Shown here piece by piece: positions 61 through 13,022 of a DNA stretch of 13,022 nucleotides. How positions within the stretch are numbered: the stretch's first letter is position 1; each line of letters opens with the position of its first letter. The stretch is from the NCBI GenBank assembly GCA_019308525.1, contig JAFDIC010000061.1:1-13022 (forward strand), written 5' to 3'. This DNA is from Deltaproteobacteria bacterium (GTDB lineage Bacteria; Desulfobacterota; DSM-4660; Desulfatiglandales; HGW-15). The position numbers and the translations under genes were made by a program. Below the pieces are notes generated by a model. It did not search any database. It saw only the letters and a list, made by a program, of their open reading frames with translations, and was not told the DNA's origin.

Positions 61-330
61 ATGCGAATCGAAACCTTATATTTTGCCACCCTGCGCAACC
101 TAACCGGCCTGGCCCGGGAGGAGGTCAACCTGGACGAAGGGGCAAAACTCCGCCACCTGCTGGAGTACCTATTTGATGTCCATGGGGAGAGGTTCCGCAA
201 TGCCCTGGACCTGGGGAACAGCCACGCAATCCTTGTCAACGGCCTCCACCACGAAACCCTCCAGGGCATGGAAACGACCTTGAAGCACGGGGACAGGGTC
301 GTATTCCTTCCCATAACCATGGGCGGTTAA
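61..330 (+). CDS. MoaD/ThiS-family small sulfur-carrier protein
   Basis: An 89-residue beta-grasp (ubiquitin-like) protein. The start MRIETLYFATLRNLTG, the central ILVNG and the C-terminal run GDRVVFLPITMGG are typical of MoaD-type proteins, which carry sulfur as a thiocarboxylate on the terminal Gly-Gly for molybdopterin/tungstopterin synthesis. The length fits MoaD (about 80-90 residues). The terminal Gly-Gly is intact, so it should be activatable by an E1-like MoeB/ThiF enzyme, but no such enzyme and no MoaE lies in the window. It differs clearly from the ThiS at 9648. No good ribosome-binding site precedes the ATG; the nearest purine run (about 38-44) is too far. The stop TAA is 13 nt from the end of the convergent permease gene. 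MoaD homologues often sit beside tungsten aldehyde oxidoreductases; what lies upstream is outside the window. The family is sure; the exact cofactor partner is not. Confidence 0.85.
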   Translation: MRIETLYFATLRNLTGLAREEVNLDEGAKLRHLLEYLFDVHGERFRNALDLGNSHAILVNGLHHETLQGMETTLKHGDRVVFLPITMGG

Positions 331-343
331 AGGCCAAGGATCT

Positions 344-1612
344 TTATTCGTGCCGGAGGGCCACGATGGGGTCCACCTCTGCGGCCCGTGCGGCGGGATA
401 GAGGCCGAAGATCACGCCTATTGCCACGCTGATGAAAAGCGGCAGCATGATGCTCCAGGGGGTTATGATGGTGGGCATCCCCGCAAAGTAAGTGATCATC
501 CTGGGTATCAGAATACCTATCCCTATCCCCAGAATGCCGCCCAGGGTTGACAGGACAACCGTTTCGATCAGGAACTGGGTTATGATCTGCTTCTTCTTGG
601 CCCCTATGGCGCGACGGATACCTATCTCCCTTGTTCTCTCGGTCACCGAGGCCAGCATTATGTTCATTATCCCTATACCTCCCACCAGAAGGCTGATAGC
701 CGCTATTGACCCCAGAACGATATTGAAGGTCCGCTTGGTGGCTTCCGCCTGTTTTAGAAGTGCCAGGGGAACGCTTATTGCGTAGTCCTTTTTCTTGTGA
801 AACTTCTTCAGCATCCGCTCTATTGCAAGGGCCGTCTTTTCCACGTTCTCCCTCTGGTCCACCTCGACGATGATCTGGTGAAGCTCCACCATTTCTCTTT
901 CAAATGAGCCGGATAGAAAGCGAAAGCTGATGTCACCGTAGTAAACGCGCGCTACATCGATGGGGATATATGCGTCTACCTGTTGGTCCGGGATCTGGAT
1001 GTTGGCAGCAGTACCGCCTTCACTCTTCACGATTCCCACTACCCTGAAGGTATCCCCGCCTATGCGAAGCGTCTGGCCGATGGTGCTCTCCGTCGCAAAG
1101 AGCCTCCTGGCCCCGTATTCCGTGAGCACCGCAACCGGAGCCTTTCTTTCCATGTCCCTGGGGGAAAGGACCCTGCCGGCAATGATGTCTCGCCTCACCA
1201 GGTCGAACCACAGGGGTGTTGTGCCCACCACTCTCAGTTCAAGCACTCTCTCTCCCATCCGACCCTGCTTCCGGATGATCTTCACCGGGACGGTCCTCTT
1301 TATGGTACCGATTGTTTCTGCCAGGCGCCTGTGGTCATCATAGGTGAGCCCGTAGATGACCATGAAAGTCCTGGTGGTGCCGGTGCTCTCATCCTCCACC
1401 GCCTTGACCGCTGTAATGATGATGTTGTTACTCCCGAGCTTCCTTATCTGGTCCAGGGCCTCCTTGCTGGCACCCTCGCCCACGGCCAGCATGGCTACCA
1501 CGCTACCCACACCGAACACCACTCCTAGCATCGTGAGGAAAGATCGCAGTTTATGGAGCAGCAGGTTATCGATGCCCAGAAGGATATTGCGGACTATCCT
1601 GGCCTGTTTCAT
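344..1612 (-). CDS. MacB-type ABC transporter permease (FtsX family)
   Basis: A 422-residue inner-membrane permease of a MacB/LolC-like exporter. It has the family architecture: a short cytoplasmic N-terminus, TM1 at about residues 22-44 (LRSFLTMLGVVFGVGSVVAM), a large periplasmic core (about 45-290), then three TM segments at about 297-322, 347-370 and 385-407. The motif TERTREIGIRRAIGA (324-338) after TM2 is the conserved cytoplasmic coupling stretch of FtsX-domain permeases. The C-terminal PAARAAEVDPIVALRHE is the classic MacB ending. It lacks a fused ATPase; the separate ATPase gene ends 4 nt upstream. GAGGAG lies 7 nt before the ATG, within the end of the ATPase gene, so coupled translation is likely. 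MacB proteins transmit ATPase motion across the membrane to drive efflux from the periplasm through the MFP and TolC rather than moving substrate through the membrane. The substrate cannot be told from sequence. It is the last gene of the operon and converges on the MoaD-like gene; no clear terminator is seen between them. Confidence 0.93.
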   Translation of the reverse strand: MKQARIVRNILLGIDNLLLHKLRSFLTMLGVVFGVGSVVAMLAVGEGASKEALDQIRKLGSNNIIITAVKAVEDESTGTTRTFMVIYGLTYDDHRRLAETIGTIKRTVPVKIIRKQGRMGERVLELRVVGTTPLWFDLVRRDIIAGRVLSPRDMERKAPVAVLTEYGARRLFATESTIGQTLRIGGDTFRVVGIVKSEGGTAANIQIPDQQVDAYIPIDVARVYYGDISFRFLSGSFEREMVELHQIIVEVDQRENVEKTALAIERMLKKFHKKKDYAISVPLALLKQAEATKRTFNIVLGSIAAISLLVGGIGIMNIMLASVTERTREIGIRRAIGAKKKQIITQFLIETVVLSTLGGILGIGIGILIPRMITYFAGMPTIITPWSIMLPLFISVAIGVIFGLYPAARAAEVDPIVALRHE

Positions 1613-1616
1613 CCCC

Positions 1617-2318
1617 TTACTCCTCTATACCCTCTATGACACCGTCTCTCATGTGGATGCTTCTCTTGGCAAAGGCCGCTATGTGGGATTCGTGGGTTAC
1701 CATGATGATGGTCTTGCCCTGGGCATTGAGTTGAACCAGCAATTCCATGATCTGTTCTCCAGTCGCAGTATCAAGGTTCCCTGTTGGTTCATCTGCAAAG
1801 ATGATCTCTGGATCATTGGCAAGGGCCCTGGCTATGGCAACCCTCTGCATTTGACCGCCTGACAACTCTGACGGGCGATGGTCCAGCCTTTCTTCGAGAC
1901 CCACTAGAGATGCAAGCTCCTTCGCCCTCTGGGCGCTTCGGGAGGCATCCCAACCCAGGTAATAGAGGGGCAACTCGATGTTTCTCTGCACCGTCAACTG
2001 GGGGATCAGGTTGAAGCTCTGGAATATGAACCCCAGGTGCCTAAGCCTCAGCTCGCTGAGGGCGTCGTCGTTCAGGGTGCTGACATTTTCTCCTTCAAGG
2101 AAGTACGCACCCCTTGTCAGGCGATCCAGGCACCCGAGGATATTCATCATGGTGCTCTTGCCCGAACCACTTGGCCCCATGATGGCACTGAAGCTCCCCC
2201 GTTCAAAGGAGACATTGACCCCTGCCAGGGCCCTCACTTCCTGCCTCCCCATCTGGTAGACTTTGTAGGCATCAACTAGTCTTACAATTTCATTGTCTGT
2301 TTCGGAAGAACCGGTCAT
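1617..2318 (-). CDS. ABC transporter ATP-binding protein (MacB/LolD type)
   Basis: A 233-residue cytoplasmic ATPase with every ABC motif intact: Walker A GPSGSGKST (48-56), Q-loop Gln100 in FIFQSFNLIP, signature LSGGQMQRVAIARAL (152-166), Walker B IIFADE (172-177) followed by PTGNLD, and the H-loop His209 in MVTHE. The combination SFNLIPQLTV and DEPTGNLD marks the MacB/LolD/FtsE branch of ATPases that pair with FtsX-fold permeases. Two copies should dimerise under the neighbouring permease and power the exporter. The ATG is preceded by GGAAGGG about 9 nt upstream, in the 18-nt gap after the MFP gene. The N-terminal residues MTGSSETDNE before the conserved core are not informative, so the start could be a few codons off. 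Confidence 0.95.
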   Translation of the reverse strand: MTGSSETDNEIVRLVDAYKVYQMGRQEVRALAGVNVSFERGSFSAIMGPSGSGKSTMMNILGCLDRLTRGAYFLEGENVSTLNDDALSELRLRHLGFIFQSFNLIPQLTVQRNIELPLYYLGWDASRSAQRAKELASLVGLEERLDHRPSELSGGQMQRVAIARALANDPEIIFADEPTGNLDTATGEQIMELLVQLNAQGKTIIMVTHESHIAAFAKRSIHMRDGVIEGIEE

Positions 2319-2336
2319 CCGGAGAAACCCTTCCTT

Positions 2337-4181
2337 TCACTGTCCTGTCATCCTTTCCCTTACAAACCTCCTCCTCTCCTCCCTTGACATGTTGCGGAAC
2401 CTCTCCCGCTCTTCGGGTGAGAGGCTCTCAAGAAATCTGCGCCTCTTCTCCCTCTCTTCAGGGGAAAGGTCCTGCAACCTCTTCAATCTCCCTTCCCGCT
2501 CCCCGGTTGGGATTCCTCCTGCCCCCGTTGAGGGCTTGGGGCGGGGCCTATCAATTGTCCCCCGAATCCCCTCCCCTTTCTTGTCGGGAGCCTGCCCGGG
2601 CTGTAGAGCAGATGATGAAGTCGGTCCCGTTCTTATGGGCCCGAGTCCCTTTATGATCTTGTCTCCATCCGTTGCCGGTTCAAGAGAGGCCTCAGAAAGA
2701 GGAGGACTCAGGGAAACGATCTCTCCTGGTTCAAGTCCCCGGATGATGTGTACCATTCGGTTGTTGTCCAGGCCTATCTCCACCTCTCTCGGTTCAAATG
2801 ACTCCCCATTCATCACGTAAACCGTGGGTCTGCCTCCTATCCTGAGTACCGCCTGGACCGGGACGTAGGTGGCCTCCTCATATTGTTCCACGATGATCTC
2901 CGCCTTGCAGCTCATTCCGCTACGTAGCTCATCGCTCGACCCGTCCAGGAAAATGTCCGTGTCATAGACCTTGAGATCCGGGTTCAAGAAAGCGCTCTGT
3001 GCATCAGGCAGGGGTGCTATCCTTGCCACTTTGCCGAAAAACACCTTTCCAGGTAGCGCGTCGACCGTAACCTTCACCGGAAGCCCCACGCGAACCTTCT
3101 CAAGGTTCGACTCGTGTATTGCCACCTCTGCCTTTGCAGCCCTGCCGACCGGAAGGTGGATCAACTCCTGTCGTTCCCTCACCACCTTGCCCTCCTCTAA
3201 GGGCTCCACCCTGCGCCTGAAGCCACCCTTCTGGGCGCTGGTGGCATAGATCACGAGACCATCGGCAGGGGCATAGATCTTTGTCTTTTCTATCTGCCTT
3301 TCTTTTTTCCTTAATTTATCCTTTTGCCGCTCGAACTCCGCCTTCTTCGCCTTCAGGTTTGCCTCTGCCTGGGCCACGTCCGCCTTTGCCTTGCGGATCG
3401 TCCTCTCCAGGGCCATCCTGGCCTGTTTGAGGTCGCTCTTGAGCTGATCCAGCCTCCTCTTGTGGGTGTAGTTTTTGAGCAACTCCAGGTCGTTCTTGGC
3501 AAGCTCGAGGTTCAGGGTGTTTTTCTTTACTGCCAGTTCATCTGTCCTGAACTCGGTCTCGGATATATACTTTTCATTGAAAAGGCGCCTTGACCACTCC
3601 AGTTTTTCCTGAGATCTTGTCAATTCTTCCCTTGCAAGGGTCAACTTCGCCTCGGCCTCTTTCAACTGGTTAGGGTACTCCCCCTCCACGTATTTCTTCA
3701 GATCCTCCTTGGCGAACTTGTAGGCCAGTTTCGCCTTGTCCACATCGGCCTCGGCCTGGTTCTTGACCACTTCCAGGTTTTCTCTGGCACTGATAAAGGC
3801 CGCCTCGGCATTCTGCACCCGAATCTGCTGGTCTATCTTCTGGTCCAGGAGGGAACTGGCGTCCAGCTCTACGAGCAGATCCCCTTTCTTGACCCTGGTG
3901 CCTTCCGGTATGAGGTAAAGGATGGTGGTCTTCCCTTCCACTTCGTTCTTGATCACCACCTGCTCCCTGGCCTTTATGGTGCCCGATTCAGTGACGCTGA
4001 TTTTCAAGGGACCTCGCCGGACGACAAATGTCGCAATCTCTTTCTCCCCTCCTTCCTTTACCTTGGATGACCTCAACTCCACCAGGTAATTCACCGCAAG
4101 CGCTGCAACCACAACAAGGCCAGTCAATATGTAGAGTTTCCTGCTCCTCAAAGACCAGGAATTCTTTTTCTTGTCGTTCAT
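2337..4181 (-). CDS. Membrane-fusion (MacA/HlyD-like) protein with LSPEER-repeat tail
   Basis: A 614-residue periplasmic adaptor, well above the roughly 370-450 usual for MacA-type proteins. Order of parts: cytoplasmic basic N-terminus; one TM anchor (about 15-36); first lipoyl half (about 79-111, with VEGKTTILYLIPEGTRVKKG); a long coiled-coil hairpin (about 112-300); second lipoyl half (KTKIYAPADGLVIYAT, 299-314); beta-barrel (about 348-432); membrane-proximal domain (about 434-492). The family bridges the inner-membrane pump and a TolC-like channel. The extra part is residues 495-614: a Pro/Gly/Ser-rich linker, then three charged repeats starting LSPEEREKRRRF (572), LSPEERERFRN (587) and MSREERRRFVRE (598). 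The tail should be periplasmic. Such repeats recall the LTxxQ motifs of Spy/CpxP proteins and DUF3106-like sequences; its role is unknown. The ATG overlaps the channel gene's stop (ATGA, 4 nt) and has GGAGGG 6 nt upstream, which settles the start. Confidence 0.92.
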   Translation of the reverse strand: MNDKKKNSWSLRSRKLYILTGLVVVAALAVNYLVELRSSKVKEGGEKEIATFVVRRGPLKISVTESGTIKAREQVVIKNEVEGKTTILYLIPEGTRVKKGDLLVELDASSLLDQKIDQQIRVQNAEAAFISARENLEVVKNQAEADVDKAKLAYKFAKEDLKKYVEGEYPNQLKEAEAKLTLAREELTRSQEKLEWSRRLFNEKYISETEFRTDELAVKKNTLNLELAKNDLELLKNYTHKRRLDQLKSDLKQARMALERTIRKAKADVAQAEANLKAKKAEFERQKDKLRKKERQIEKTKIYAPADGLVIYATSAQKGGFRRRVEPLEEGKVVRERQELIHLPVGRAAKAEVAIHESNLEKVRVGLPVKVTVDALPGKVFFGKVARIAPLPDAQSAFLNPDLKVYDTDIFLDGSSDELRSGMSCKAEIIVEQYEEATYVPVQAVLRIGGRPTVYVMNGESFEPREVEIGLDNNRMVHIIRGLEPGEIVSLSPPLSEASLEPATDGDKIIKGLGPIRTGPTSSSALQPGQAPDKKGEGIRGTIDRPRPKPSTGAGGIPTGEREGRLKRLQDLSPEEREKRRRFLESLSPEERERFRNMSREERRRFVRERMTGQ

Positions 4182-6148
4182 TCCAATCCCTCCAACCAGA
4201 AACCCATCTCGGGACTATATTCCTGCCACAATCCCCTTTCGTCAACCCTGAGGACACCAGTGTCCCGCTGAAATTCCAACTCCGCTATCCTGTAATCCAC
4301 CACTGCTGAAATGAATGCGTTCTTGGCATTGATCAACGACTCCTGGGCCTCAAGGACATCCCGTATCGGGATACGGCCTGCCTCAAAGAACAGTGCCGTG
4401 CTTTTCACCCGCCTCTCTGCCACAAGCGTGGCCCTTGCCTGGATCTTCCTTGCCTCCCTGGCCTCGAACATGGCGCGCAGCCTGTCACGGACCGCGAGTT
4501 TGATCTTATCTTCCAGTTCCCGCAGGTTCAGCACGGAGTCTTCCAGGTCTATGAAACTCTTCCTGTAAGCGTTCCTCTCGGCGGTTCGTTCAAAGGGAAG
4601 GTCAATGGTCAGCAGGGCGGAATAGATGCCCTTTTCCGCCCTGAGCTTGGCATTATCCAAATGAGCGGTATCAATGGATCGGGGTTCACCAAGCCTTGCC
4701 TTTCCCAGCAGGGTCACCTCCGCCCTCAGGGCATCCGCCCTTACGACTACCTTTCTTTGTGCATCATAGACCTTTCCTTCGGCTACCCTCAGGTCCAGGC
4801 GGTTTTTCAGACCCAGGTCGATGGCGCGGGAAGGATCCATCTCCAGAGGGCCGGCCCCTTCCCTTCCCGGCATGGACAATTGGATCGGGGCATCAGCAGG
4901 CTGCACTTTTTCCCTTTCCTTGCGCACTTTTTCGCGAGCTATTTCCTCTATGATGCCGGAGGTTTCAGCAACCAGTTTATCCAGCTCACCCCTGTCCAGG
5001 AGGAGCTCGGCGTCAGGGGGCAGGCCCAAGAGGAATTTGAAAAAATCCAGGCTCCTCTTGTAGTCCTCCTGTGCCCTGATCCACCGGTTCCGGGCCCTCA
5101 GCTCGTTCTGGCGTGCCTGGTCGACCTGCACCTCCGAAACCCGCCCTGCATCCGCCATCCTTCGCGTACGCCGCGTGGATGAAATCAGGTTGCGGTAGTT
5201 CTCCTCGGCATTCTCCACCTCGCTCAGGCGTCGAAGCACCTCCAGATAATTCTTGGCGATGTCTACGGCCAGGGTCTTCTTGAACCTCTCAAATTCCCAT
5301 ATGGCATAAAGGACATTCCTTTCTGCCTGCGTCAGCGGTTCAGTCACGATCTGCCGCCCCGCCCCCCTTAAAAGAGGAATCGTGATAGAGGCATCTCCCA
5401 CTATTCCCAGGGTCGAAGAATTATCCTGGGTGAGCAGTTTAACCACATCCAGTGCCAGAGCCGTACTGAACTCTATACCGCTCTTGAGCTTCCTGCTCCA
5501 CTCCAGTCCGCCGCCGACCTCTGCACCCGTTACGGTTTTCTTGCCGCTCGAATCCGTCTCTATGAATCCCTCGATTCTTCCTGCCAGTATGTTTCGGAAC
5601 TCGTTCCGCTCCAGGTCCAGGTCCAGGGCTGCCCTGAATATGGCCTCCTTCTCGAATTGATATTCAGGGTTGTTCCGAGCTCCTATCTGGAGCGCCTCTA
5701 CCATGGATATCCTAAGGGGGCCTTCTTCAGGCACCGTGACGACTCGATCTTCGGAGGGCTCCCCCCCTGGATAGTTCTTCTCAGGCCAGTGCTCAATCTT
5801 CTTCAGTCTGTCAGTACCCAGGGATGCCTCGCTGGCGTAAGGCAGGCCTTGATCGATCAGCAAGCGCCGACGAAGGATGTCGCTGGGGCGTTCGATAGTG
5901 AAAGGCGTTGCCTTGCCCAGGGCCTTCTCTTGTGCCTCCTGGATTACCCCGGTTGCGACCATGTCGGCCTCCTCCCGATACCCTGCCGGTGTCCGGCAAC
6001 CGGCCAAGAGTCCCAGTGCAGCGACCAAAAAGAGTATTGATCGGAAGAAGGACCTCAAGGACAACTTGCCGCTCCCTGTGCAGGCGCGAAAGGCAACAGG
6101 AACAAAATCCATGGAAGGGAATATGAATGCTCTTCTACCTGCCACCAT
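4178..6148 (-). CDS. TolC-like outer-membrane efflux channel lipoprotein
   Basis: A 656-residue outer-membrane factor. A hydrophobic stretch ILFLVAALGLLAG ends in Cys51 (LLAGC), a lipobox, so the mature protein should be lipid-anchored like NodT/OprM-type channels. After a spacer of about 95 residues come two TolC-type (OEP) repeats of long amphipathic helices and short strands: the first about 150-380 (ARNNPEYQFEKEAIFRAALD, then TLAVDIAKNYLEVLRRLSEVENA), the second about 430-640 (RAIDLGLKNRLDLRVAEGKV, then FFEAGRIPIRDVLEAQESL). It is long for the family. The chosen start is supported by AAGGAGG 8 nt upstream; it gives an unusually long region of about 33 residues before the hydrophobic core. 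An internal ATG (Met13, 6112) would give a more normal signal peptide but has no ribosome-binding site. It is the first gene of the exporter operon and overlaps the MFP gene by 4 nt, so it is the dedicated exit channel. Confidence 0.92.
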   Translation of the reverse strand: MVAGRRAFIFPSMDFVPVAFRACTGSGKLSLRSFFRSILFLVAALGLLAGCRTPAGYREEADMVATGVIQEAQEKALGKATPFTIERPSDILRRRLLIDQGLPYASEASLGTDRLKKIEHWPEKNYPGGEPSEDRVVTVPEEGPLRISMVEALQIGARNNPEYQFEKEAIFRAALDLDLERNEFRNILAGRIEGFIETDSSGKKTVTGAEVGGGLEWSRKLKSGIEFSTALALDVVKLLTQDNSSTLGIVGDASITIPLLRGAGRQIVTEPLTQAERNVLYAIWEFERFKKTLAVDIAKNYLEVLRRLSEVENAEENYRNLISSTRRTRRMADAGRVSEVQVDQARQNELRARNRWIRAQEDYKRSLDFFKFLLGLPPDAELLLDRGELDKLVAETSGIIEEIAREKVRKEREKVQPADAPIQLSMPGREGAGPLEMDPSRAIDLGLKNRLDLRVAEGKVYDAQRKVVVRADALRAEVTLLGKARLGEPRSIDTAHLDNAKLRAEKGIYSALLTIDLPFERTAERNAYRKSFIDLEDSVLNLRELEDKIKLAVRDRLRAMFEAREARKIQARATLVAERRVKSTALFFEAGRIPIRDVLEAQESLINAKNAFISAVVDYRIAELEFQRDTGVLRVDERGLWQEYSPEMGFWLEGLE

Positions 6149-6156
6149 AACCTCTT

Positions 6157-6163
6157 CCTCCTT
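6157..6163 (-). promoter_or_regulatory. Strong ribosome-binding site fixing the channel start
   Basis: On the minus strand AAGGAGG lies 8 nt before the ATG at 6148. This near-perfect Shine-Dalgarno supports the upstream Met over the internal Met13 at 6112, although the resulting signal peptide is long. Confidence 0.75.
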
Positions 6164-6201
6164 GCTCGCTACCCAAAATCCTTGGTACTGGGTTCAAAGA
6201 T

Positions 6202-6236
6202 CAGGGTCCAGAGAGCCCGGCTCTGGTTCGCCCCTG
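6202..6236 (-). other. Two-tier hairpin in the exporter leader
   Basis: CAGGG (6202-6206) pairs with CCCTG (6232-6236), and inside it CCAGAG (6208-6213) pairs with CTCTGG (6221-6226) around a 7-nt loop, leaving an asymmetric internal loop (1 versus 5 nt). It lies about 55-90 nt upstream of the channel start. No T-run follows on either strand, so it is not an intrinsic terminator. A role in leader structure or mRNA stability is inference. Confidence 0.4.
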
Positions 6237-6352
6237 AAAGAGGCTGAGTCCCGACGCGACCAGCTATATCAAGGAGCCAGAAAAATCTTGACTCCGTTTT
6301 GATCCAACAAATTGAGAATGCAAGCCTGGCATTGGCGATAATCTTGTTCTGT

Positions 6353-6378
6353 ATTCTGGATTCTGGCTCCTGGATTCC
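6353..6378. repeat. Degenerate heptamer tandem repeat (ATTCTGG)
   Basis: Reads ATTCTGG, ATTCTGG, CTCCTGG, ATTCC: about 3.7 units of 7 nt, with a decayed extra unit (GTTCTGT) just before. From memory, similar TGGATTCTGG/CCAGAATCC tracts occur between genes in deltaproteobacterial genomes. I see no coding role. Confidence 0.55.
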
Positions 6379-6418
6379 TTGCATGCATATCACGCCACAG
6401 CCTTTGAATTCTGAGCGG

Positions 6419-6451
6419 ATCCTCTCCTGGATGCCGCCATGGGGAGAGGAT
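6419..6451. other. Perfect 9-bp inverted repeat
   Basis: ATCCTCTCC (6419-6427) and GGAGAGGAT (6443-6451) are perfect reverse complements around a 15-nt loop, extendable by one wobble pair. No T-tract follows in the leftward direction, so it does not look like a terminator for that strand. It would lie in the leader of the exporter operon if that is transcribed from 6563 or by read-through from the Spy-like gene. Confidence 0.45.
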
Positions 6452-6562
6452 ATGGATTTCAGTTTTCAATCAAATGATCCCTCTCGCCCTGTCCCGCCCT
6501 AAGGTGTTTCTTGAAAACCAGCGATATGGTGGATCCGGCATTGGACAATAGGCAACATGGTA

Positions 6563-6591
6563 ATTATATCACAACAGAAGGCTAACAAGAC
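6563..6591 (-). promoter_or_regulatory. Possible extended -10 promoter for the exporter operon
   Basis: The minus strand carries TGATATAAT (6563-6571), a perfect TATAAT with the TGn extension. At a 17-nt spacer the -35 position holds GTCTTG (6586-6591), a poor match, as is common for extended -10 promoters. It would give a leader of about 410 nt before the channel gene, which is long, so it may serve something else or be chance in an AT-rich patch. Confidence 0.4.
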
Positions 6592-6712
6592 ACGCAAGAA
6601 TATTGCGAGGATACGCTGAAGGAGGTACGGAAGCCAGAGGAAAGCGTTCGAATTCGAGATATCTTTCGACTCCTCTTCACCGAGAAGATCCCGGGTACGT
6701 CTCTTATTCATA

Positions 6713-6744
6713 TGCCCGGCCCAGGGGAGGCCCAGGACCGGGCA
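6713..6744 (-). terminator. Weak GC-rich hairpin after the Spy-like gene
   Basis: TGCCCGG (6713-6719) pairs with CCGGGCA (6738-6744), with partly matched inner bases. It starts about 30 nt past the Spy-like stop codon. The downstream leftward sequence is AT-rich but has no T-run, so it is at best a weak terminator and read-through toward the exporter operon is possible. Confidence 0.3.
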
Positions 6745-6775
6745 CACGCATGCATGGGATTTGTAATGGGGTCGT

Positions 6776-7249
6776 CTATTGCCAGGCAGGCCCTAGTCTC
6801 ATCTCCTGGTATGCCCCCGGCCTTTCCCCCTTTGGTCGACGTGACCCTCTGCGGGACTTCAAGGAGAGGACCTTTTCCCGCTGTTCAGGCGTCAGGATCT
6901 TTCGGAATTCCAGGCGAAAATCCGTCAACCTGTCTTCCATCTTTGCCCTCAGCTCGCGAATCTCCCTTTGCTTCGCCTTAATCTTTGCTGCATCAAGATT
7001 GTCTTCCATCCACAAGAGACTCAGTTCGGTCCTTTTCTTGATCATCTCGTTCCTCAGGTGAAGAATATCATCCCTGAGGGATTGCCGCAGGGATTGGATC
7101 TTGCCTCTCTGCTCTTCGGTGAGATTCAGGTCTTTGAACCAGGTGGACCTTTCACCCCTGGCCATCCCCTCGCCTCCGGGCCCTGCAATGGCTCCGTTGA
7201 CCAACAGGGCAAGGAGCAAGAAAATTGAAAGCACTAGGATCTTCTTCAT
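6776..7249 (-). CDS. Periplasmic Spy/CpxP/ZraP-like protein with LTxxQ motifs
   Basis: A 157-residue exported protein. Residues 1-22 form a signal peptide (KK, a leucine-rich core LVLSIFLLLALLV, then AIA before Gly23). The mature part is almost all charged alpha-helix with two LTxxQ motifs, LTEEQRGKIQSL (43) and LTPEQREKVLSL (119), the hallmark of the Spy/CpxP/ZraP family. These act in the envelope as chaperones, stress-signal modulators or metal binders. The tail (132-157) is basic and disordered-looking; there is no His/Cys-rich metal cluster, so zinc binding as in ZraP is not evident. AAGGAGGTGA lies 6 nt before the ATG, a near-ideal ribosome-binding site. A sigma-54-type promoter and an upstream half-site cluster precede it and resemble those in front of the kinase at 10915, so control by that two-component system is likely. 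The exporter operon follows on the same strand. Confidence 0.88.
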   Translation of the reverse strand: MKKILVLSIFLLLALLVNGAIAGPGGEGMARGERSTWFKDLNLTEEQRGKIQSLRQSLRDDILHLRNEMIKKRTELSLLWMEDNLDAAKIKAKQREIRELRAKMEDRLTDFRLEFRKILTPEQREKVLSLKSRRGSRRPKGERPGAYQEMRLGPAWQ

Positions 7250-7280
7250 GGCTCGTCACCTCCTTTCTGGTACCCGATAA

Positions 7281-7296
7281 TGCATGGGTTGTGCCA
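7281..7296 (-). promoter_or_regulatory. Sigma-54 (-24/-12) promoter of the Spy-like gene
   Basis: The minus strand reads TGGCACAACCCATGCA. Against the sigma-54 consensus TGGCACG-N4-TTGCA it matches TGGCAC fully and keeps the required GG-to-GC spacing (12 nt between corresponding positions), with ATGCA for TTGCA. Transcription would start near 7271, leaving about 22 nt of leader that just includes the ribosome-binding site. Position, match and the upstream activator-like cluster agree. Confidence 0.75.
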
Positions 7297-7381
7297 CGAT
7301 TTCCCTCTTATTATAACCACCTGTTTTTGCTTGTATCTAGGACTAGCCGCCCGTGAAAGGGGTTCCTTCAAAGGGAAATGG

Positions 7382-7420
7382 TTGTCGAAAACAGGTGTCG
7401 ATTTCGACACTCTTGTCGAA
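7382..7420. promoter_or_regulatory. TGTCGA half-site cluster (putative enhancer, Spy side)
   Basis: Four half-sites in 39 nt: TGTCGA at 7383, 7396 and 7414, and TCGACA at 7404. The central pair forms a perfect inverted repeat GTGTCGA-TT-TCGACAC (7395-7410); TTGTCGAA occurs at both ends (7382 and 7413). The centre is about 120 nt upstream of the -12 GC of the Spy-side sigma-54 promoter, a normal distance for an NtrC-type activator. A cluster of the same half-site precedes the kinase gene. That the response regulator binds here is inference. Confidence 0.65.
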
Positions 7421-7468
7421 CAGGGGCCCCCCTTTGCCCAGTACATGACTTCTTTGCTATGAAACTTC

Positions 7469-7497
7469 TTGACTGTTTTGCCATTGTAGTCTATTTA
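7469..7497 (+). promoter_or_regulatory. Sigma-70 promoter of the thiamin operon
   Basis: TTGACT (7469-7474), a 17-nt spacer and TATTTA (7492-7497). The predicted start, about 7504, falls at the first base of the TPP riboswitch P1 helix, which strongly supports the assignment. It is divergent from the Spy-like gene's sigma-54 promoter. Confidence 0.7.
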
Positions 7498-7504
7498 AGA
7501 GAAT

Positions 7505-7588
<84 letters not shown>

Positions 7589-7615
7589 AAAAGGTAAGTG
7601 GGCGTCTTTACTATG

Positions 7616-7647
7616 GCTGTTTCCCGGGCTGGGAAACGGCTTTTTTT
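7616..7647 (+). terminator. Riboswitch-controlled intrinsic terminator
   Basis: GCTGTTTCCC (7616-7625), loop GGGCT and GGGAAACGGC (7631-7640) make a 10-pair stem with one G-U, followed by seven T's. The 5' arm can instead pair over 10 positions with GGGAAACGGT at 7578-7587, which is part of the aptamer closing region. Ligand-bound P1 formation would free the arm for termination; without TPP the antiterminator forms. The terminator lies 71 nt before thiG, inside an upstream extension of its reading frame. Confidence 0.92.
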
Positions 7648-7717
7648 GTTCCTTGCTGGAAAACCATTTTTGAAACCCTGTTTCGACGCATACAGCCTGT
7701 CTTCAAGGAAATATGAA

Positions 7718-8485
7718 ATGGACGACCTCATTATCGCCGGACGCAGGTTTGGCTCCCGGCTCCTGTTGGGGACGGGAAAATTCCCTTCGACCGAGACCAT
7801 GTCCAGGGCCCTGGAGGCCTCTGGTGCTGAAATTGTAACCGTTGCATTGAGGCGGGTGGATCTGGCAAACCCCCAGGACAACCTGTTGAAGGCCATTGAC
7901 ACTGATAGGTATCTGCTCCTGCCGAACACCTCCGGGGCCAGGGATGCCTCCGAGGCCGTAAGGCTGGCCAGATTGGCCAGGGCTGCTGGCTGCGGAGCCT
8001 GGGTCAAACTGGAAGTCACGCCCGACCCCCACTACCTGCTCCCTGACCCCGTGGAGACATTGAAAGCCTCTGAGGCCCTCATAAAGGAGGGGTTCATCGT
8101 GCTCCCTTACATATCCGCGGATCCTATCCTGGCAAAGCGCCTGGAGGAAGCGGGAACTGCGACGGTAATGCCCCTGGGCTCCCCCATCGGCTCCAAGCAG
8201 GGACTGAGGACCAGGGATGCCATAGAAATCATCATTGAGAATTCCAACGTCCCCGTGGTTGTGGACGCCGGGCTCGGGGCCCCGTCCCACGCTTCAGAGG
8301 CAATGGAAATGGGCGCAGATGCTGTACTGGTCAACACCGCCATAGCGGTTGCCGGTGATCCCGTGGCGATGGCAGACGCGTTCAAAAGAGGAGTGGAAGC
8401 GGGACGGAAGGCCTTTCTGGCCGGGATCAGGAAGCCCCAGAAGACGGCGGAGGCATCAAGTCCCCTTACCGGGTTCTTGAGGTAA
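7718..8485 (+). CDS. thiG: Thiazole synthase ThiG
   Basis: A 255-residue (beta/alpha)8 enzyme that builds the thiazole phosphate ring of thiamin from 1-deoxy-D-xylulose 5-phosphate, dehydroglycine and the ThiS thiocarboxylate. Family marks: [21 protein letters not shown] at the N-terminus, VTVALRRV (40-47), WVKLEV with the Schiff-base lysine Lys97, [13 protein letters not shown] (151-163) and [30 protein letters not shown]. The frame is open from 7598, but those extra 40 codons cover the terminator and show no family similarity. The ATG at 7718, with AAGGAA 7 nt upstream, matches the family start. It is the first gene of thiGHSE under the TPP riboswitch, 6 nt from thiH. The partner that makes dehydroglycine here is ThiH, the oxygen-sensitive radical enzyme, rather than the glycine oxidase ThiO. 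Confidence 0.97.
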
Positions 8486-8491
8486 GAGCAC

Positions 8492-9613
8492 ATGAGCTTT
8501 TACGAGCAGGTGAGAGAATACAAGTGGAATGAGCTTGAAAAGGCTATCCAGGCCGCGTCCGAGACGGACGTGGAAAGGGCCCTTGCCAAGGACCGTCTCC
8601 AGCCCTATGACTTGATCCCCTTGTTGTCACCTGCTGCAAGCTCCTACCTGGAGGAGATGGCCCAAAGGGCTCTCGGGCTGACCCAACAGCGTTTTGGGAG
8701 GGTGATACAACTGTTCGCTCCCCTTTACCTGTCCAACGTCTGCACCAACCGCTGTGCCTATTGCGGTTTCAATTCCACCAATCCCGTGAAGAGGCTAACA
8801 CTTACGACAGAACAGGCGGAGGAGGAAGGCAGGTACTTGCACCAACAGGGCTTCCGGCACCTCCTCCTTGTCTCAGGGGAGGCCCCCGAGGTCGTCTCCC
8901 TGCCATATCTTGAGGCAATACTTGAGAACCTCACGCCCTTGTTTTCCTCTATTTCCATAGAGTTGTATCCAATGGACAGCAAGGCTTACGAGCAACTTAT
9001 ATCTAGCGGCGTCGATGGGCTCGTGGTGTTTCAAGAAACCTACGACCAGAGGCGCTACATGGAGGTTCACCTGGGGGGAAGAAAACGGGATTACCTCTGG
9101 CGCCTGGAGACACCCGAGAGGGGCGGAGTCGCGGGTTTCAGAAACCTCGGTATCGGGGCCCTGTTGGGCCTGAGTAACTGGAGGGTGGAAGGCTTTTTCC
9201 TTGGCCTCCATGCACGGTATCTCATGAAGAATTTTTGGAGATCCCGCGTCAATATCTCTTTCCCCAGAATCAGGCCGGCCGCGAGTGATTATCAACTGCC
9301 AAGTCCTGTCTCGGACCTCCACATGGTGCAGCTACTCACTGCGTTGAGGCTCTTTCTCCCGGACGCTGGACTGGTTTTGTCCACCCGGGAACCCCCTTCC
9401 CTTCGCGACAACCTGATTCCCCTGGGGATAACCAGCATGAGCGCGGGAGCAAGGACAGCTCCTGGAGGCTACACCCAGGGTGCGGAAGCAGAGGCCCAGT
9501 TTGATATATCTGATCATCGTGCCCCCGGCGTAGTTGCTGAGGTGATCAAGCAAAGGGGTTACGAGCCTGTGTGGAAAGATTGGGACAGGGCCTTCGTGGA
9601 GGCAGCCAAATGA
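8492..9613 (+). CDS. thiH: 2-iminoacetate synthase ThiH (radical SAM tyrosine lyase)
   Basis: A 373-residue radical SAM enzyme that cleaves tyrosine to p-cresol and dehydroglycine (2-iminoacetate), the substrate of ThiG. The [4Fe-4S] motif is CTNRCAYC (Cys84, Cys88, Cys91), preceded by FAPLYLSNV as in known ThiH. Further family marks are HLLLVSGEAP, YPMDSKAYEQLISSGVDGLVVFQETYD and, near the end, SMSAGARTAPGGYT. The length agrees with the family (about 370-380). Use of ThiH fits an anaerobic or facultative lifestyle. GAGG lies 9 nt upstream of the ATG, overlapping the end of thiG. Confidence 0.97.
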   Translation: MSFYEQVREYKWNELEKAIQAASETDVERALAKDRLQPYDLIPLLSPAASSYLEEMAQRALGLTQQRFGRVIQLFAPLYLSNVCTNRCAYCGFNSTNPVKRLTLTTEQAEEEGRYLHQQGFRHLLLVSGEAPEVVSLPYLEAILENLTPLFSSISIELYPMDSKAYEQLISSGVDGLVVFQETYDQRRYMEVHLGGRKRDYLWRLETPERGGVAGFRNLGIGALLGLSNWRVEGFFLGLHARYLMKNFWRSRVNISFPRIRPAASDYQLPSPVSDLHMVQLLTALRLFLPDAGLVLSTREPPSLRDNLIPLGITSMSAGARTAPGGYTQGAEAEAQFDISDHRAPGVVAEVIKQRGYEPVWKDWDRAFVEAAK

Positions 9614-9647
9614 ACGAACTGTTGTGAGGGAAAAGCGAGCATCGAGC

Positions 9648-9848
9648 ATGGAGATTATCGTCAACGGCGAAAAAAAACGCTTTGAACGATCCCTGTCCGT
9701 GGCAGACCTTGTGAAGGATCTTGGGCTGGAGCCAAAGACGGTCATCGTAGAACTCAATCTCCAGGTCGTATCCAGGGATGAAATGGGAAGGACCCCTGTT
9801 AGGGATGGAGACAGGCTTGAGATAGTCGGCATATTCGGCGGAGGGTGA
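9648..9848 (+). CDS. thiS: Sulfur carrier protein ThiS
   Basis: A 66-residue beta-grasp protein: MEIIVNGEKKRFE, then VADLVKDLGLEPKTVIVELN, and GDRLEIVGIFGGG at the C-terminus. The terminal Gly-Gly carries the thiocarboxylate that supplies sulfur to ThiG. The frame could start at a GTG at 9624, but the 8 extra residues are not family-like and 66 residues is the usual length, so the ATG at 9648 is chosen despite its weak ribosome-binding site. It sits 34 nt after thiH, and its stop TGA shares one base with the thiE ATG. The activating enzyme ThiF is not in the window and must be encoded elsewhere or borrowed from another carrier system. Confidence 0.93.
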   Translation: MEIIVNGEKKRFERSLSVADLVKDLGLEPKTVIVELNLQVVSRDEMGRTPVRDGDRLEIVGIFGGG

Positions 9849-10513
9849 TGGACAGGCAGACACGAGCGGCAATGTTTCAAGAAATAGACGTATATCCCGT
9901 CACCTGCGAGGCCCTGTCTTCGGGTAGATCCAATTTACAAGTCCTCGAAGGTGTGATCGAGGGCGGCGCCAGGATAATCCAGCTCAGGGAAAAGGAGTAT
10001 TCGGAAAGAGACTTCTACCGGCTGGCATTGGAGTTTCGCAAAGTTACGGCCGGATCGAACGTACTGCTCATTATCAATGACCACGTGGACATTGCCCTGG
10101 CCGTGGATGCAGATGGGGTTCACCTCGGGCAGCAGGATCTGCCCTTGCGAGTCGCTAGGAGACTTGCACCCCAGCTCCTTATCGGTGTATCAACCCACTC
10201 ACTTGAAGAGGCCCTCCAGGCCCAGCAATCCGGTGCGGATTACATCAATATCGGCCCCATCTTCCCCACCAAGACAAAAAAGGGGGCCGCTGATTTCCTG
10301 GGCCCGGACATGATCGGCCGCATCGGACGCAATATCCATATCCCGTTCACGGTGATGGGCGGGATCGACCTTTCAAATATCGACCAGGTCCTGGCCCAGG
10401 GCGCGCGGCGCGTGGCCATGGTCACTGCTATTACCCAGGCACCTGACATTGCTGAAAAGGTCAGATTGATAAAGGACAGGATAGCGACCTTCCCCGGAAC
10501 AGCCCGGCAATAG
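9848..10513 (+). CDS. thiE: Thiamin-phosphate synthase ThiE
   Basis: A 221-residue TIM-barrel enzyme joining the thiazole phosphate and HMP pyrophosphate to thiamin phosphate. Family marks: IIQLREKEY (43-51) for pyrophosphate contacts, LIINDHVDIALAVDADGVHL with GQQDLP (binding site around 74-99), IGVSTHSLEEA, ADYINIGPIFPTKTK (130-144) and VMGGID near the C-terminal phosphate site. The start VYPVTCEALS lacks the common LYLVTD form. The ATG overlaps the thiS stop (TGATG); GGAGGG lies only 2 nt upstream, so a GTG at 9845 or Met9 (9872) are alternatives. It closes the operon. No HMP genes (thiC, thiD) are present, so this locus covers the thiazole branch and the coupling step only. Confidence 0.94.
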   Translation: MDRQTRAAMFQEIDVYPVTCEALSSGRSNLQVLEGVIEGGARIIQLREKEYSERDFYRLALEFRKVTAGSNVLLIINDHVDIALAVDADGVHLGQQDLPLRVARRLAPQLLIGVSTHSLEEALQAQQSGADYINIGPIFPTKTKKGAADFLGPDMIGRIGRNIHIPFTVMGGIDLSNIDQVLAQGARRVAMVTAITQAPDIAEKVRLIKDRIATFPGTARQ

Positions 10514-10633
10514 TATTCGGTCTTGCCCAGGCATCCCTTTTGCCAGAGGCCCTTTGCTGTTTCTTTACCCTTTCTTGACCCGGGATCCGGCGCGATCTTA
10601 TGCAGGAAAGAATCCCGGCAAATCAGGCAAGGA

Positions 10634-10671
10634 ATGTCGAAAAGGAGAATGCTGTCGACATATTTGTCGAA
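10634..10671. promoter_or_regulatory. TGTCGA half-site cluster (putative enhancer, kinase side)
   Basis: TGTCGA at 10635, 10653 and 10665, the middle one being part of the perfect palindrome TGTCGACA (10653-10660), which adds TCGACA at 10655. TTGTCGAA at 10664 is identical to the two flanking copies at 7382 and 7413. Its centre is 124 nt upstream of the -12 GC of the sigma-54-like element before the kinase. Arm spacing differs from the Spy-side cluster, so the exact operator form is uncertain. Confidence 0.6.
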
Positions 10672-10766
10672 AAATGATAGGTTTCTCAACAACCTCTTAT
10701 GCTATTCGGAGTTCTGGTGGACCTGGGCATGCGGCCGTCCTGCATGTCTCAATCCGCTTATGGATA

Positions 10767-10782
10767 AGGTCCGAAGATTGCA
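10767..10782 (+). promoter_or_regulatory. Sigma-54-like promoter of the kinase/regulator genes
   Basis: AGGTCCGAAGATTGCA matches the -12 half fully (TTGCA), keeps the invariant GG and GC with correct spacing, and has the C and G of the -24 half, but it lacks the leading T and the CA of TGGCACG. Transcription would start near 10793 and leave a leader of about 120 nt. The match is weaker than on the Spy side; the support comes from its distance to the TGTCGA cluster. Confidence 0.5.
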
Positions 10783-10914
10783 TTACTTGATGATGCCCTC
10801 GAAAAGCCTTAAGGATAATCTATGAGGCGATCTATTTATTCACGGCAGGGGAATGCCGCGATTGCAACGGGCCGAAGCCCAACCCGGGACCAAATGGAGG
10901 TCTGGAAATAGGCC

Positions 10915-12651
10915 ATGAGAGTCTTGAAGGAGGCTATCAGGCGTAGAAGCCCCAGGAAAAGGCCAACCCAGCCGTTTCTCCAGCCATTGGCCTTGGCACT
11001 TGTGTGTGCGCTGTTGATTGCCCTTTTGGTCCTGATGCGGTGGATGGACCTGCGTGCCGTCGACAGTACATTGACCAAGTACATGGAAAACAGGGGCTCG
11101 TCCATCATAACGAACATCCAACATGTGGCCGGAATATACAGAGGACAATTGCTAGAGTCGGACCAGGCAGGCCTTGGAATGGAAGGCGCCCCCTCAATCT
11201 CTGACGATGCCTTTTCTCTCCAGGAGGCATTCGTTATCGATCTCCTGCAATCCGCCCAAAAGTTGGATTACCAGATGGGGAATGGACCATACATGGGCCA
11301 AGAACTGGACGCTTTCGCTCAAAGAGAAGGCTTGTGGTTGCTGGCTATCCTAGACAAGAGCGGGCGGGTAATCTCCAGCAACAAGCCCGTGCCCGCTGAG
11401 GAGTTACAATTGGCGACCCCCTTGTGGACCGGTCAAAGTGACGTCAAGATCGACATCTTCACTCATCCTGACAATAGCAACAAGCTCCGATCACTGACAA
11501 TCCGGAGGAAATCCGGAGAAGGATTCATCATGCTGGCCATGGATAAAAAGTCTTTTGAGAAGAGGGTCCTGAGGTTTTCCTTCAAAAGGGCCCTTCAGGA
11601 CATCCGCCTGTTACCTGCCATTGGATACCTGATCATCATGGACAAAGACCTTCGCCCCTTTGGCCAGGTGGGCGAAGCACCTGAAATCGCGGATCAGGGT
11701 CTCGTGTGGAGGGTCATCAGCGGCAAGGCAGGTATTTCAAGCCACAAGATCACATACAGCGGGAGGAGATATCTGGACATGATCCTGCCGCTCCATCGAG
11801 GCAACGGTATTGACTACCTCGTCAGGCTGGGGCTGTCAAGGGAAGGGCCCGGCCAGATTCGCAAGAAAAACAGGCGGGCCTTATTCATCTCCATGGCCTT
11901 TATGATCATCATTACCGTTGTTTCCATGTGGCTGCTCTACAAAAACCAAAACAGGCACCTGGCAAAGACCCGGGAGATGGAAAAAAGAATACAAAACGCA
12001 GAGAGGCTTTCGGCCCTCGGACGGCTGGGAGCGGGTGTGGCGCACGAGATCCGCAATCCCCTGAACGCAATCAGCATGGCGGCCCAAAGGCTTGATGCGG
12101 ACAACCTCCCCCAATTGAAAGGGGTGATAAGGGATGAGACGAGGAGGCTCAATGACATTATCGAAGAGTTCTTGGGTCTTTCGAGATCCAGGAAGCTGGC
12201 CGTCGGACGTCACGACCTGGCCTCGCTGATAAAAGAAGTCGGCCTCTTGTTTGAAGAGGAGGCCCGGTCTCGGGGTGCAACAATGGACATCGACGCCGGC
12301 AGAACCCCTGTTTTTGTCAACATGGATCCCCACAAGCTGAAACAGGCCCTGATAAATCTTGTGAAAAATGCGCTTGAGTCTTTCTCCCACAGCGGAACAA
12401 TATCAATCAGATTGACACAAAGGGGCACTGGATGGGTGTGCGTTACCATTGCAGATAGTGGCCCGGGGTTGGAGCCTGAGCAAGTTCGCCGGATCTTTGA
12501 CCTGGATTACACCACCAAGGAGAAGGGCCTCGGGCTTGGGCTCCCATTGGCCCAGGAGATAGTCAGGGGACACGGCGGAGAGCTCCGCGTAGATAGCACC
12601 CCCGGACATGGGACGACCTTCGAGATACTACTGCCCATGGAAAAAGATTGA
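10915..12651 (+). CDS. Membrane-bound sensor histidine kinase (NtrB/ZraS-like)
   Basis: A 578-residue sensor kinase. TM1 is at about residues 22-42 and TM2 at about 322-342, enclosing a periplasmic domain of about 280 residues. That domain holds two PAS-like strand pairs, LLAILDKSGRVISSN (142-156) and YLIIMDKDLRPFG (238-250), suggesting a double-Cache-type fold; the ligand is unknown. A short linker leads to HisKA with the phospho-accepting His377 in GVAHEIRNPLNAIS, then HATPase_c: N-box Asn485 (NLVKNALES), DSGPGL (514-519), FDLDYTTK (528-535) and the G2 box GLGLGL (538-543). The compact HEIRNPL-type core is typical of kinases paired with NtrC-family regulators such as ZraS and AtoS. An in-frame stop lies two codons before the ATG, so it cannot start earlier; only AGG 3 nt upstream and GGAGG 14 nt upstream resemble ribosome-binding sites. 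The regulator follows after 121 nt. Confidence 0.93.
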   Translation: MRVLKEAIRRRSPRKRPTQPFLQPLALALVCALLIALLVLMRWMDLRAVDSTLTKYMENRGSSIITNIQHVAGIYRGQLLESDQAGLGMEGAPSISDDAFSLQEAFVIDLLQSAQKLDYQMGNGPYMGQELDAFAQREGLWLLAILDKSGRVISSNKPVPAEELQLATPLWTGQSDVKIDIFTHPDNSNKLRSLTIRRKSGEGFIMLAMDKKSFEKRVLRFSFKRALQDIRLLPAIGYLIIMDKDLRPFGQVGEAPEIADQGLVWRVISGKAGISSHKITYSGRRYLDMILPLHRGNGIDYLVRLGLSREGPGQIRKKNRRALFISMAFMIIITVVSMWLLYKNQNRHLAKTREMEKRIQNAERLSALGRLGAGVAHEIRNPLNAISMAAQRLDADNLPQLKGVIRDETRRLNDIIEEFLGLSRSRKLAVGRHDLASLIKEVGLLFEEEARSRGATMDIDAGRTPVFVNMDPHKLKQALINLVKNALESFSHSGTISIRLTQRGTGWVCVTIADSGPGLEPEQVRRIFDLDYTTKEKGLGLGLPLAQEIVRGHGGELRVDSTPGHGTTFEILLPMEKD

Positions 12652-12772: not shown

Positions 12773-13022
12773 ATGAAACCATTGAACATCTTGATAGTAG
12801 AGGATGGAAAGACCCAGCGCAACCTGCTCAGGGATTTCCTGAAAGGGGCGGGGCATAAGGTCAGCGAGGCTGAAAAGGGTGATGATGCGATTACCGGGCT
12901 AAAAAGAGACTACTTTGATCTGGTGCTCCTCGATTACAAGCTGCCCGGAATGGATGGTATGGATGTACTACAACAAATAAAGCACCTCAACCCGGAGACC
13001 GACGTGATCATGATGACCGCCT
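12773..13022 (+). CDS. Response regulator receiver domain, probably NtrC-type (partial)
   Basis: The first 83 residues of a response regulator, cut by the window edge. Receiver features are all present: NILIVEDGKTQRN with the acidic pair Glu10-Asp11, LVLLDYKLPGMDG with the phospho-accepting Asp54, and VIMMTA with the switch Thr82. The spelling of the Asp54 region (DYKLPGMDGMDVLQQIK) and the following NPETDVIMMTA are common in NtrC-family sigma-54 activators. The sigma-54-like sites upstream of the kinase and the Spy-like gene fit that, but the AAA+ and DNA-binding domains lie outside the window, so the class is inference. AGGTGA precedes the ATG by about 9 nt. The 121-nt gap from the kinase contains a small hairpin, GCAACC (12698-12703) with GGTTGC (12708-12713). 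Confidence 0.9.
   Translation, partial: MKPLNILIVEDGKTQRNLLRDFLKGAGHKVSEAEKGDDAITGLKRDYFDLVLLDYKLPGMDGMDVLQQIKHLNPETDVIMMTA

Follow-up and report, generated by a model that had tools for sequence, protein, structure and literature searches.

The window, by which we mean the whole stretch of 13,022 nt analysed here, belongs to a bacterium related to sulfate reducers. The features found in it are collected in Table 1, together with the small-RNA loci of related genomes that are described below. The product of the Spy-like gene scores over the cut-offs of both domains of the Spy/CpxP/ZraP family (Metal_resist, 66.6 bits; LTXXQ, 49.5 bits) and is assigned to that family. Its start codon and that of the sensor kinase gene are 3.7 kb apart, with a TPP riboswitch and thiGHSE in between; a single spacer shared by divergent target and kinase genes, as in the ZraPSR layout, is not present in the window. 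The riboswitch (7502-7641), which lies ahead of thiG, contains an intrinsic-terminator-like hairpin at 7615-7641, and a small ThiS-family protein is encoded at the left edge of the window (61-330). The Spy-like gene is followed on the same strand by genes for an outer-membrane channel, an adaptor, an ABC ATPase and a MacB-type permease (344-7249). The same cluster is found at positions 4197-9717 of a relative's kinase locus, L006, where it is directly divergent from the kinase gene; among the loci L001-L023 (see below) it occurs only there. Plasmid relatives of the kinase region were sought, and none was found.

Table 1. Features of the window, with the loci at which a small RNA was found in related genomes
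Feature	Position or locus	Strand	Remarks
MacB/HlyD/TolC-like exporter	344-6148	minus	
Putative decayed third operator, downstream of Spy-like gene	6653..6670		10.2 bits; homologous G466 place, 25.3 bits
Spy/CpxP/ZraP-family periplasmic protein gene	6776..7249	minus	Metal_resist and LTXXQ; matches to solved Spy, CpxP and ZraP structures
Predicted sigma-54 element TGGCACAACCCATGCA of Spy-like gene	7281..7296	minus	19.5 of 22; counterpart TGGCACGCCCCGTGCA in G466
Spy-side half-site TGTCGA	7383..7388	plus	precedes the dyad's own TGTCGA by 31 nt
Palindrome TGTCGATTTCGACA	7396..7409		overlaps Spy-side dyad; kept inside a 17-column block in G466
Spy-side predicted operator dyad TTCGACACTCTTGTCGAA	7403..7420		exact dyad; 20.9 bits (matrix from 17 relatives' sites)
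TPP riboswitch and thiGHSE	7502-10513		
Kinase-side half-site TGTCGA	10635..10640	plus	precedes the dyad's own TGTCGA by 30 nt; 29 nt in G466
Kinase-side predicted operator dyad GTCGACATATTTGTCGAA	10654..10671		24.8 bits (same 17-site matrix, relatives only); 22-nt invariant block in G466
Weaker predicted sigma-54 element AGGTCCGAAGATTGCA before kinase	10767..10782	plus	18.0 of 22; counterpart AGGCGCAAAGATTGCA in G466
Sensor histidine kinase gene	10915..12651	plus	HisKA and HATPase_c
Response regulator gene, first 83 codons in window	12773..13022	plus	Response_reg; 75% identical to G466 regulator, in which GAFTGA is present
Small RNA, upstream of kinase in relatives	L001, L002, L003, L004, L007, L011, L014, L017, L018, L021	minus	
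Small RNA, blind-found loci	L139-L148		

The hexamer TGTCGA occurs 10 times on the two strands of the window: four copies lie within 7383-7419, four within 10635-10670 and two elsewhere. In shuffled windows 4.42 copies (sd 2.07) are expected, and ten were reached in 4 of 200. The first-pass annotation had noticed the clusters of four at both promoters and held them to be above chance. They are real and well above chance, since none of 2000 first-order simulated windows contained even one cluster of four TGTCGA inside 37 nt. The 8-mer that it had described as common to the two sides, TTGTCGAA, is indeed found at 7382-7389, 7413-7420 and 10664-10671. The unit present in both clusters is TCGACA-N4-TGTCGA (7404-7419 and 10655-10670), and the window contains only these two exact copies. 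The extended dyad, TTCGACA-N4-TGTCGAA, is complete on the Spy side, while the kinase-side site differs from it in the first base. On both sides, the upstream half-site and the dyad's own TGTCGA have the same orientation.

The predicted sigma-54 element of the Spy-like gene is the best match in the window, and its score was reached in 2 of 5000 simulations of its region; the score of the element before the kinase was reached in 200 of 5000. The window thus contains a strong predicted sigma-54 promoter for the Spy-like gene and a moderate one for the kinase. A palindromic site ca. 100-200 nt upstream of a -24/-12 element is a trait of enhancer-binding-protein regulons, and the Spy-side dyad lies 129 nt from its element; the kinase-side distance is 118 nt. 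In the closest relative found (G466, see below), the two distances are 129 and 148 nt. The spacings of 124 and 120 nt put forward in the first-pass annotation can be reproduced from the centres of the palindromes (10656.5 and 7402.5) and the -12 GC positions (10780/10781 and 7282/7283). Given the dyad-based distances in the two genomes, the near-equality of these figures is therefore not itself conserved; we take the match to be coincidental and have dropped it as a signature. At the third operator-like place, downstream of the Spy-like gene, no sigma-54 element scoring at least 16 was found on that strand. A search for structured RNA in the kinase leader gave a z value of -0.47, i.e., none was detected.

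The proteins of G466 are 55% (kinase, over 566 aa), 75% (receiver, over 83 aa) and 72% (Spy-like protein, over 156 aa) identical to those of the window. The layout is split in the same way: the Spy-like gene with its operator lies ca. 10 kb away from the operator-kinase-regulator arrangement on one contig, and thiS-thiE is located directly upstream of the kinase gene, as in the window (ThiE, 81%). The intervening genes differ, being transport genes and thiSE in G466 versus thiGHSE in the window. The operator core before the kinase, TCGACATATTTGTCGA, is identical in the two genomes, and the block TCGACATATTTGTCGAAAAATG is invariant in the kinase-side alignment. In contrast, the palindrome TGTCGACA (at 10653), which the first-pass annotation had emphasised, is broken in G466 by a 7-nt insertion that separates GAATGCTG from TCGACA. 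We therefore reject it as an operator and regard it as an accidental abutment; the conserved unit is the N4 dyad. At the Spy-like gene of G466, the cluster GTGTCGATTTCGACAC includes a one-mismatch dyad (16.4 bits), with TGGCACGCCCCGTGCA at 129 nt, as in the window. The G466 kinase gene is preceded by a forward sigma-54 element, AGGCGCAAAGATTGCA, that scores 19.0, was matched by 47 of 5000 simulations and has 12 of 16 bases in common with the window element.

Exact dyads occur at two places in the 5.1 Mb of G466, before the kinase gene and downstream of the Spy-like gene, both on the contig that carries these genes. The downstream place is a third predicted operator (25.3 bits) with a sigma-54 element of its own (19.5); the contig ends downstream of this element (L211, 408-553). 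When one mismatch is allowed, 19 places are found in G466 versus 8 for the reversed pattern, so weak dyad matches alone mean little.

Among the kinase relatives collected, P0002 is 77% identical to the kinase of the window. Eighty genome loci of kinase relatives were fetched, and 23 of them (L001-L023; 29-46% identity) were treated as orthologue candidates. The kinase gene is followed by a regulator gene in all 23. Upstream counts are based on 22 loci, L013 being left out (84 nt upstream). In 17 of the 22, a dyad with at most one mismatch (eight exact, nine with one mismatch) lies before the kinase match at a distance of no more than 900 nt, as compared to 6 of 1055 overlapping control stretches of those loci; in L003, L009, L019, L021 and L022, no such dyad was found upstream of the kinase. 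With the A/T-rich spacer of the relatives, the full motif reads TTCGACA-WWWW-TGTCGAA. The 17 sites, with the window excluded, were used to build a matrix. The best scores in a background of 329,036 positions were 20.3, 15.0 and 14.2 bits, and the window sites, at 20.9 and 24.8 bits, both score like true members under this relatives-only matrix.

A G[AS]FTGA motif was found in 20 of the 21 first-set regulators that were long enough (L004 and L016 are cut before the motif, L009 is cut after it, and L014 is without it), and three of three regulators scanned contain Response_reg, Sigma54_activat and HTH_8 domains. The sigma-54 interaction domain whose absence would have spoken against the first-pass annotation was thus found in the orthologous regulators, the window's own being visible for 83 aa. 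The C-termini of most of these regulators carry a recognition helix similar to ERMLRYKLKKYG. A Spy-like gene adjoins the kinase gene in 8 of the 23 loci and is divergent from it in L006, L010, L012 and L016. Sigma-54 elements of at least 18.0 that point toward the kinase were found in 2 of 17 loci, and one of these (L012) precedes an intervening Spy-like gene.

A second set of loci was obtained by searching 85 genomes of one class with the sensor half of the kinase; 21 matched. Eighteen of the 20 loci of this set (L167-L186) were counted, since L176 is without upstream sequence and L184 is the same locus as L006; L178 was counted as a miss. An operator of at least 14.8 bits is present in 17 of the 18, the exception being L178, which has less than 200 nt upstream. 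A sigma-54 element that is divergent from the kinase and scores at least 18.5 is located 131-142 nt from the operator in 16 of the 17 (139-142 nt in 15), and in 7 of the 18 loci the second-best match is a weaker site that precedes the dyad by 29-32 nt. A Spy-like gene is found at the divergent promoter in 8 of 10 second-set regions fetched; the remaining two are L195, for which upstream sequence is missing, and L189, the region of G466. Throughout 18 genomes, exact dyads occur at 23 places and the reversed pattern at none. Eighteen of the 23 places were tested, and a sigma-54 element of at least 18 within 60-260 nt was found at six, all of them kinase or Spy loci. The other 12 have no such element, and the notion that every exact dyad marks a regulon member was rejected. 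As can be seen, the operator follows this kinase-regulator pair across both sets, even when no Spy-like gene is adjacent. The conservation at orthologous loci by which the first-pass annotation proposed to judge the clusters is therefore borne out, including in G466 with the same split layout.

Comparison between genomes thus shows the operators, the promoter elements, the pairing of the genes and the type of regulator in relatives. We consider it very probable that the window encodes a ZraPSR-like envelope-stress circuit, in which the usual shared divergent operator region is split by the thi operon, with an operator on each side. In such a circuit, the sensor kinase would respond to a stress signal and phosphorylate the NtrC-type regulator starting at 12773, which would bind TTCGACA-N4-TGTCGAA with the aid of the half-site located at a distance of ca. 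three helical turns. The regulator, an AAA+ enhancer-binding protein in this view, would then open sigma-54 promoters; activation would be strong for the Spy-like chaperone gene and is probable for the operon of the kinase and the regulator itself. In most of the relatives that were examined, a single operator region between the kinase and a divergent target would drive the target away from the kinase, whereas in the window and G466 an operator is found on both sides of the intervening genes. The second operator may have arisen by duplication upon gene insertion: the same orientation and the same order of half-site and dyad on both sides suggest duplication, an independent origin being possible as well. 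The proposal of the first-pass annotation that one regulator controls both the Spy-like gene and its own operon is supported, strongly for control of the Spy-like gene and moderately for autoregulation, because the sigma-54 element of the kinase is modest and, while recurring in G466, is rare in other relatives.

One may suppose instead that the Spy-like gene is the regulator's sole target, in which case the operator before the kinase would be a remnant of an ancestral divergent region or would serve to repress a sigma-70 promoter of the regulator's own operon, and the sigma-54 element there would be due to chance. The weak or missing forward sigma-54 elements of most first-set loci, the 200 of 5000 simulations that reached the score of the window kinase element and the direction of the strong element, which in 16 of 17 second-set loci is opposite to that of the kinase gene, agree with this. 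However, a similar forward element precedes the G466 kinase, no sigma-70-like promoter was found in a search of 10300-10950, and the 22-nt kinase-side block is invariant even though it lies ca. 10 kb from the Spy-like gene in G466. We hold this explanation to be possible but rather unlikely.

Sigma-54 control of Spy genes extends beyond the present operator. Out of 41 Spy-like matches listed, the 30 with loci (L099-L128) were scored, and 20 of them have a sigma-54 element of at least 18.5 in the 650 nt before the domain match; the TTCGACA dyad is absent from 16 of these 20. It thus seems that such control is common in these genomes and that several regulators act on Spy genes. In L106, L108 and L121, a different common motif, CCAGACRGAAATRTC, is located ca. 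280 nt upstream of the Spy-like domain matches, before the sigma-54 elements, and is possibly the operator of a sister regulator. Together with the 83 aa to which the view of the window's regulator is limited, the 16 loci lend some room to the idea that another NtrC-type regulator, encoded elsewhere, binds both clusters in place of that at 12773. Since the operator accompanies this kinase-regulator pair in both sets, also in loci without an adjacent Spy-like gene, we consider this very unlikely. Least probable is transcription of the Spy-like gene from the sigma-70-like promoter on the minus strand (7339-7310; TAGATA-N18-TATAAT, 10 of 12 matches; 3 promoter-like sites were found versus 1.2 expected), with the clusters being sites of another kind of factor, for it is the sigma-54 element and not this promoter that recurs at a constant 129 nt in G466 and that lies 131-142 nt from the operator in 16 of 17 second-set loci.

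In the split ZraPSR-like circuit that we favor, the divergent target is a Spy-like gene; in relatives it can be of another kind. In first-set loci without an adjacent Spy-like gene, the strongest sigma-54 element still faces away from the kinase, with a non-coding stretch downstream of it. A covarying small RNA of ca. 115 nt, divergent from the kinase and with a sigma-54 element ahead of it, was found in 20 relatives, in 10 of them blind. It ends in a terminator hairpin, and several copies contain CUCCUCC-like stretches. The covariance model used, R2, was built from nine first-set loci and replaced model R1, which was discarded for a poor automatic structure that included the promoter. Of the 22 kinase loci for which upstream sequence is available, R2 detects the RNA in 10; one of these, L003 (E 3.7e-9), had not been used for training. 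The small RNA was not found in the window by either a core-motif search or R2. Four further loci (L005, L008, L020 and L023) contain other short non-coding stretches upstream of the kinase on the minus strand, with strong hairpins and CUCCUCC-like runs; they have the same kind of divergent sigma-54 element ahead and are unmatched by the RNA model.

When 395 genomes of the phylum (including G004 and G006) were searched with R2, 46 matched at E <=0.01, and there were 11 matches at E <1e-9, ten of which were new. A divergent kinase relative (29-34% identity) is present at all ten new loci, as is a sigma-54 element (16.5-19.5) just before the RNA. An operator of at least 20.9 bits lies ca. 195 nt before the sigma-54 element in eight of the ten; the other two score 13.1 and 12.0. 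Seventeen weaker matches (L149-L165) showed a kinase in no case and no operator above 9.2 bits, with a sigma-54-like element of 17.5 in L162; the weaker matches L138, L166 and those without loci were left out. In 19 distinct sequences, 87.6% of cells are paired and 14 of 18 pairs are changed on both sides, values as high being reached in none of 500 shuffles, with the proviso that the alignment was fitted to the structure, which favours pair counts. For further pair types, 7 of 500 shuffles were as high, and one pair is unpaired in 12 of the 19 sequences. An Rfam scan of seven loci returned two tRNAs only and no match for the RNA.

We think it likely that the operator is part of a two-component module that is widespread in Desulfobacterota-like bacteria and whose sigma-54 output is modular. 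The position opposite the kinase would be filled by either a Spy-type chaperone or the ca. 115-nt structured RNA (without an Rfam match at the loci scanned), whose CUCCUCC-like stretches could block ribosome-binding sites. In a common envelope-stress response, the chaperone and the RNA would either replace or complement each other, and the window would be a Spy-type member with a split operator region. The data point to a family of sigma-54 small RNAs that are linked to a sensor kinase, in an arrangement resembling the control of GlmY by QseF. The Qrr RNAs under LuxO are a comparable sigma-54 small-RNA arrangement. In the QseE/QseF-GlmY system, as described in excerpts of PMC6075780 and PMC8745638, a sigma-54 small RNA encoded next to the genes of an NtrC-type regulator is driven by that regulator, with a role in envelope homeostasis. 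The relatives have a comparable small RNA, which is without an Rfam match at seven loci, while the window is without such an RNA. In the literature searched, parts of which were available as excerpts, no report of such a kinase-linked small RNA was found, GlmY under QseF being the nearest precedent.

Literature searches for the operator gave little: the strings TGTCGA and TCGACA do not occur in the main text of PMC3333781 or PMC4641369, which were consulted for Desulfovibrio vulgaris regulator motifs, and TTCGACA was met with in an excerpt of PMC9195938, on ibuprofen degradation. According to excerpts of a 2025 survey, sigma-54 promoters are predicted for many genes of NtrC-type regulators, also in Thermodesulfobacteriota; autoregulation of ZraR is mentioned as well (PMC12316311). 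The operator described here is testable; it belongs to a branch of ZraSR/AtoSC-like regulators that is large, has been little studied and occurs in environmental bacteria. The locus also indicates how genes inserted into a shared divergent control region can separate its two arms while each retains an operator.

The best NCBIfam matches are to AtoSC, with 207.8 bits for the window kinase against AtoS and 519 bits for the L002 regulator against AtoC, but both scores are under the cut-offs (646 and 714, respectively). The targets of AtoSC are acetoacetate genes, whereas a Spy-like gene adjoins the pair here. The ZraPSR (HydHG) system of Escherichia coli has the same components as the window, namely a Spy/CpxP-family periplasmic protein, a sensor histidine kinase and a response regulator of the NtrC type, this type being predicted in the case of the window. 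According to the available excerpts, the zraP/zraSR spacer is bound by E. coli ZraR, which also controls its own expression (PMC8249747; autoregulation also in PMC7657598), and sigma-54 sites precede zraP and zraS (PMC4591121). In the window, however, target and kinase are split by the thi operon, and the operators differ: TTCGACA-N4-TGTCGAA is absent, even with up to three mismatches, from the enterobacterial spacers of all nine loci examined, four of which contain a perfect GCGAGT-N7-ACTCGC repeat, and an operator of this E. coli type is not found in the window. Likewise, the recognition helix is SERMLRYKLKKYG-like in the orthologous regulators of relatives, as opposed to TRKTLLAKLSR in an Escherichia ZraR. 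The NCBIfam equivalog scores are below the cut-offs for ZraP (30.7 of 200) and ZraS (194.4 of 479), and also for ZraR, for which the regulators of L002 (475.8 of 760) and L006 (487.1 of 760) were scored, that of the window being cut. Because of the sub-cut-off scores, the different operator and the broken divergent layout, we conclude that the window circuit would work like ZraPSR, yet is not the orthologue of E. coli zraPSR.
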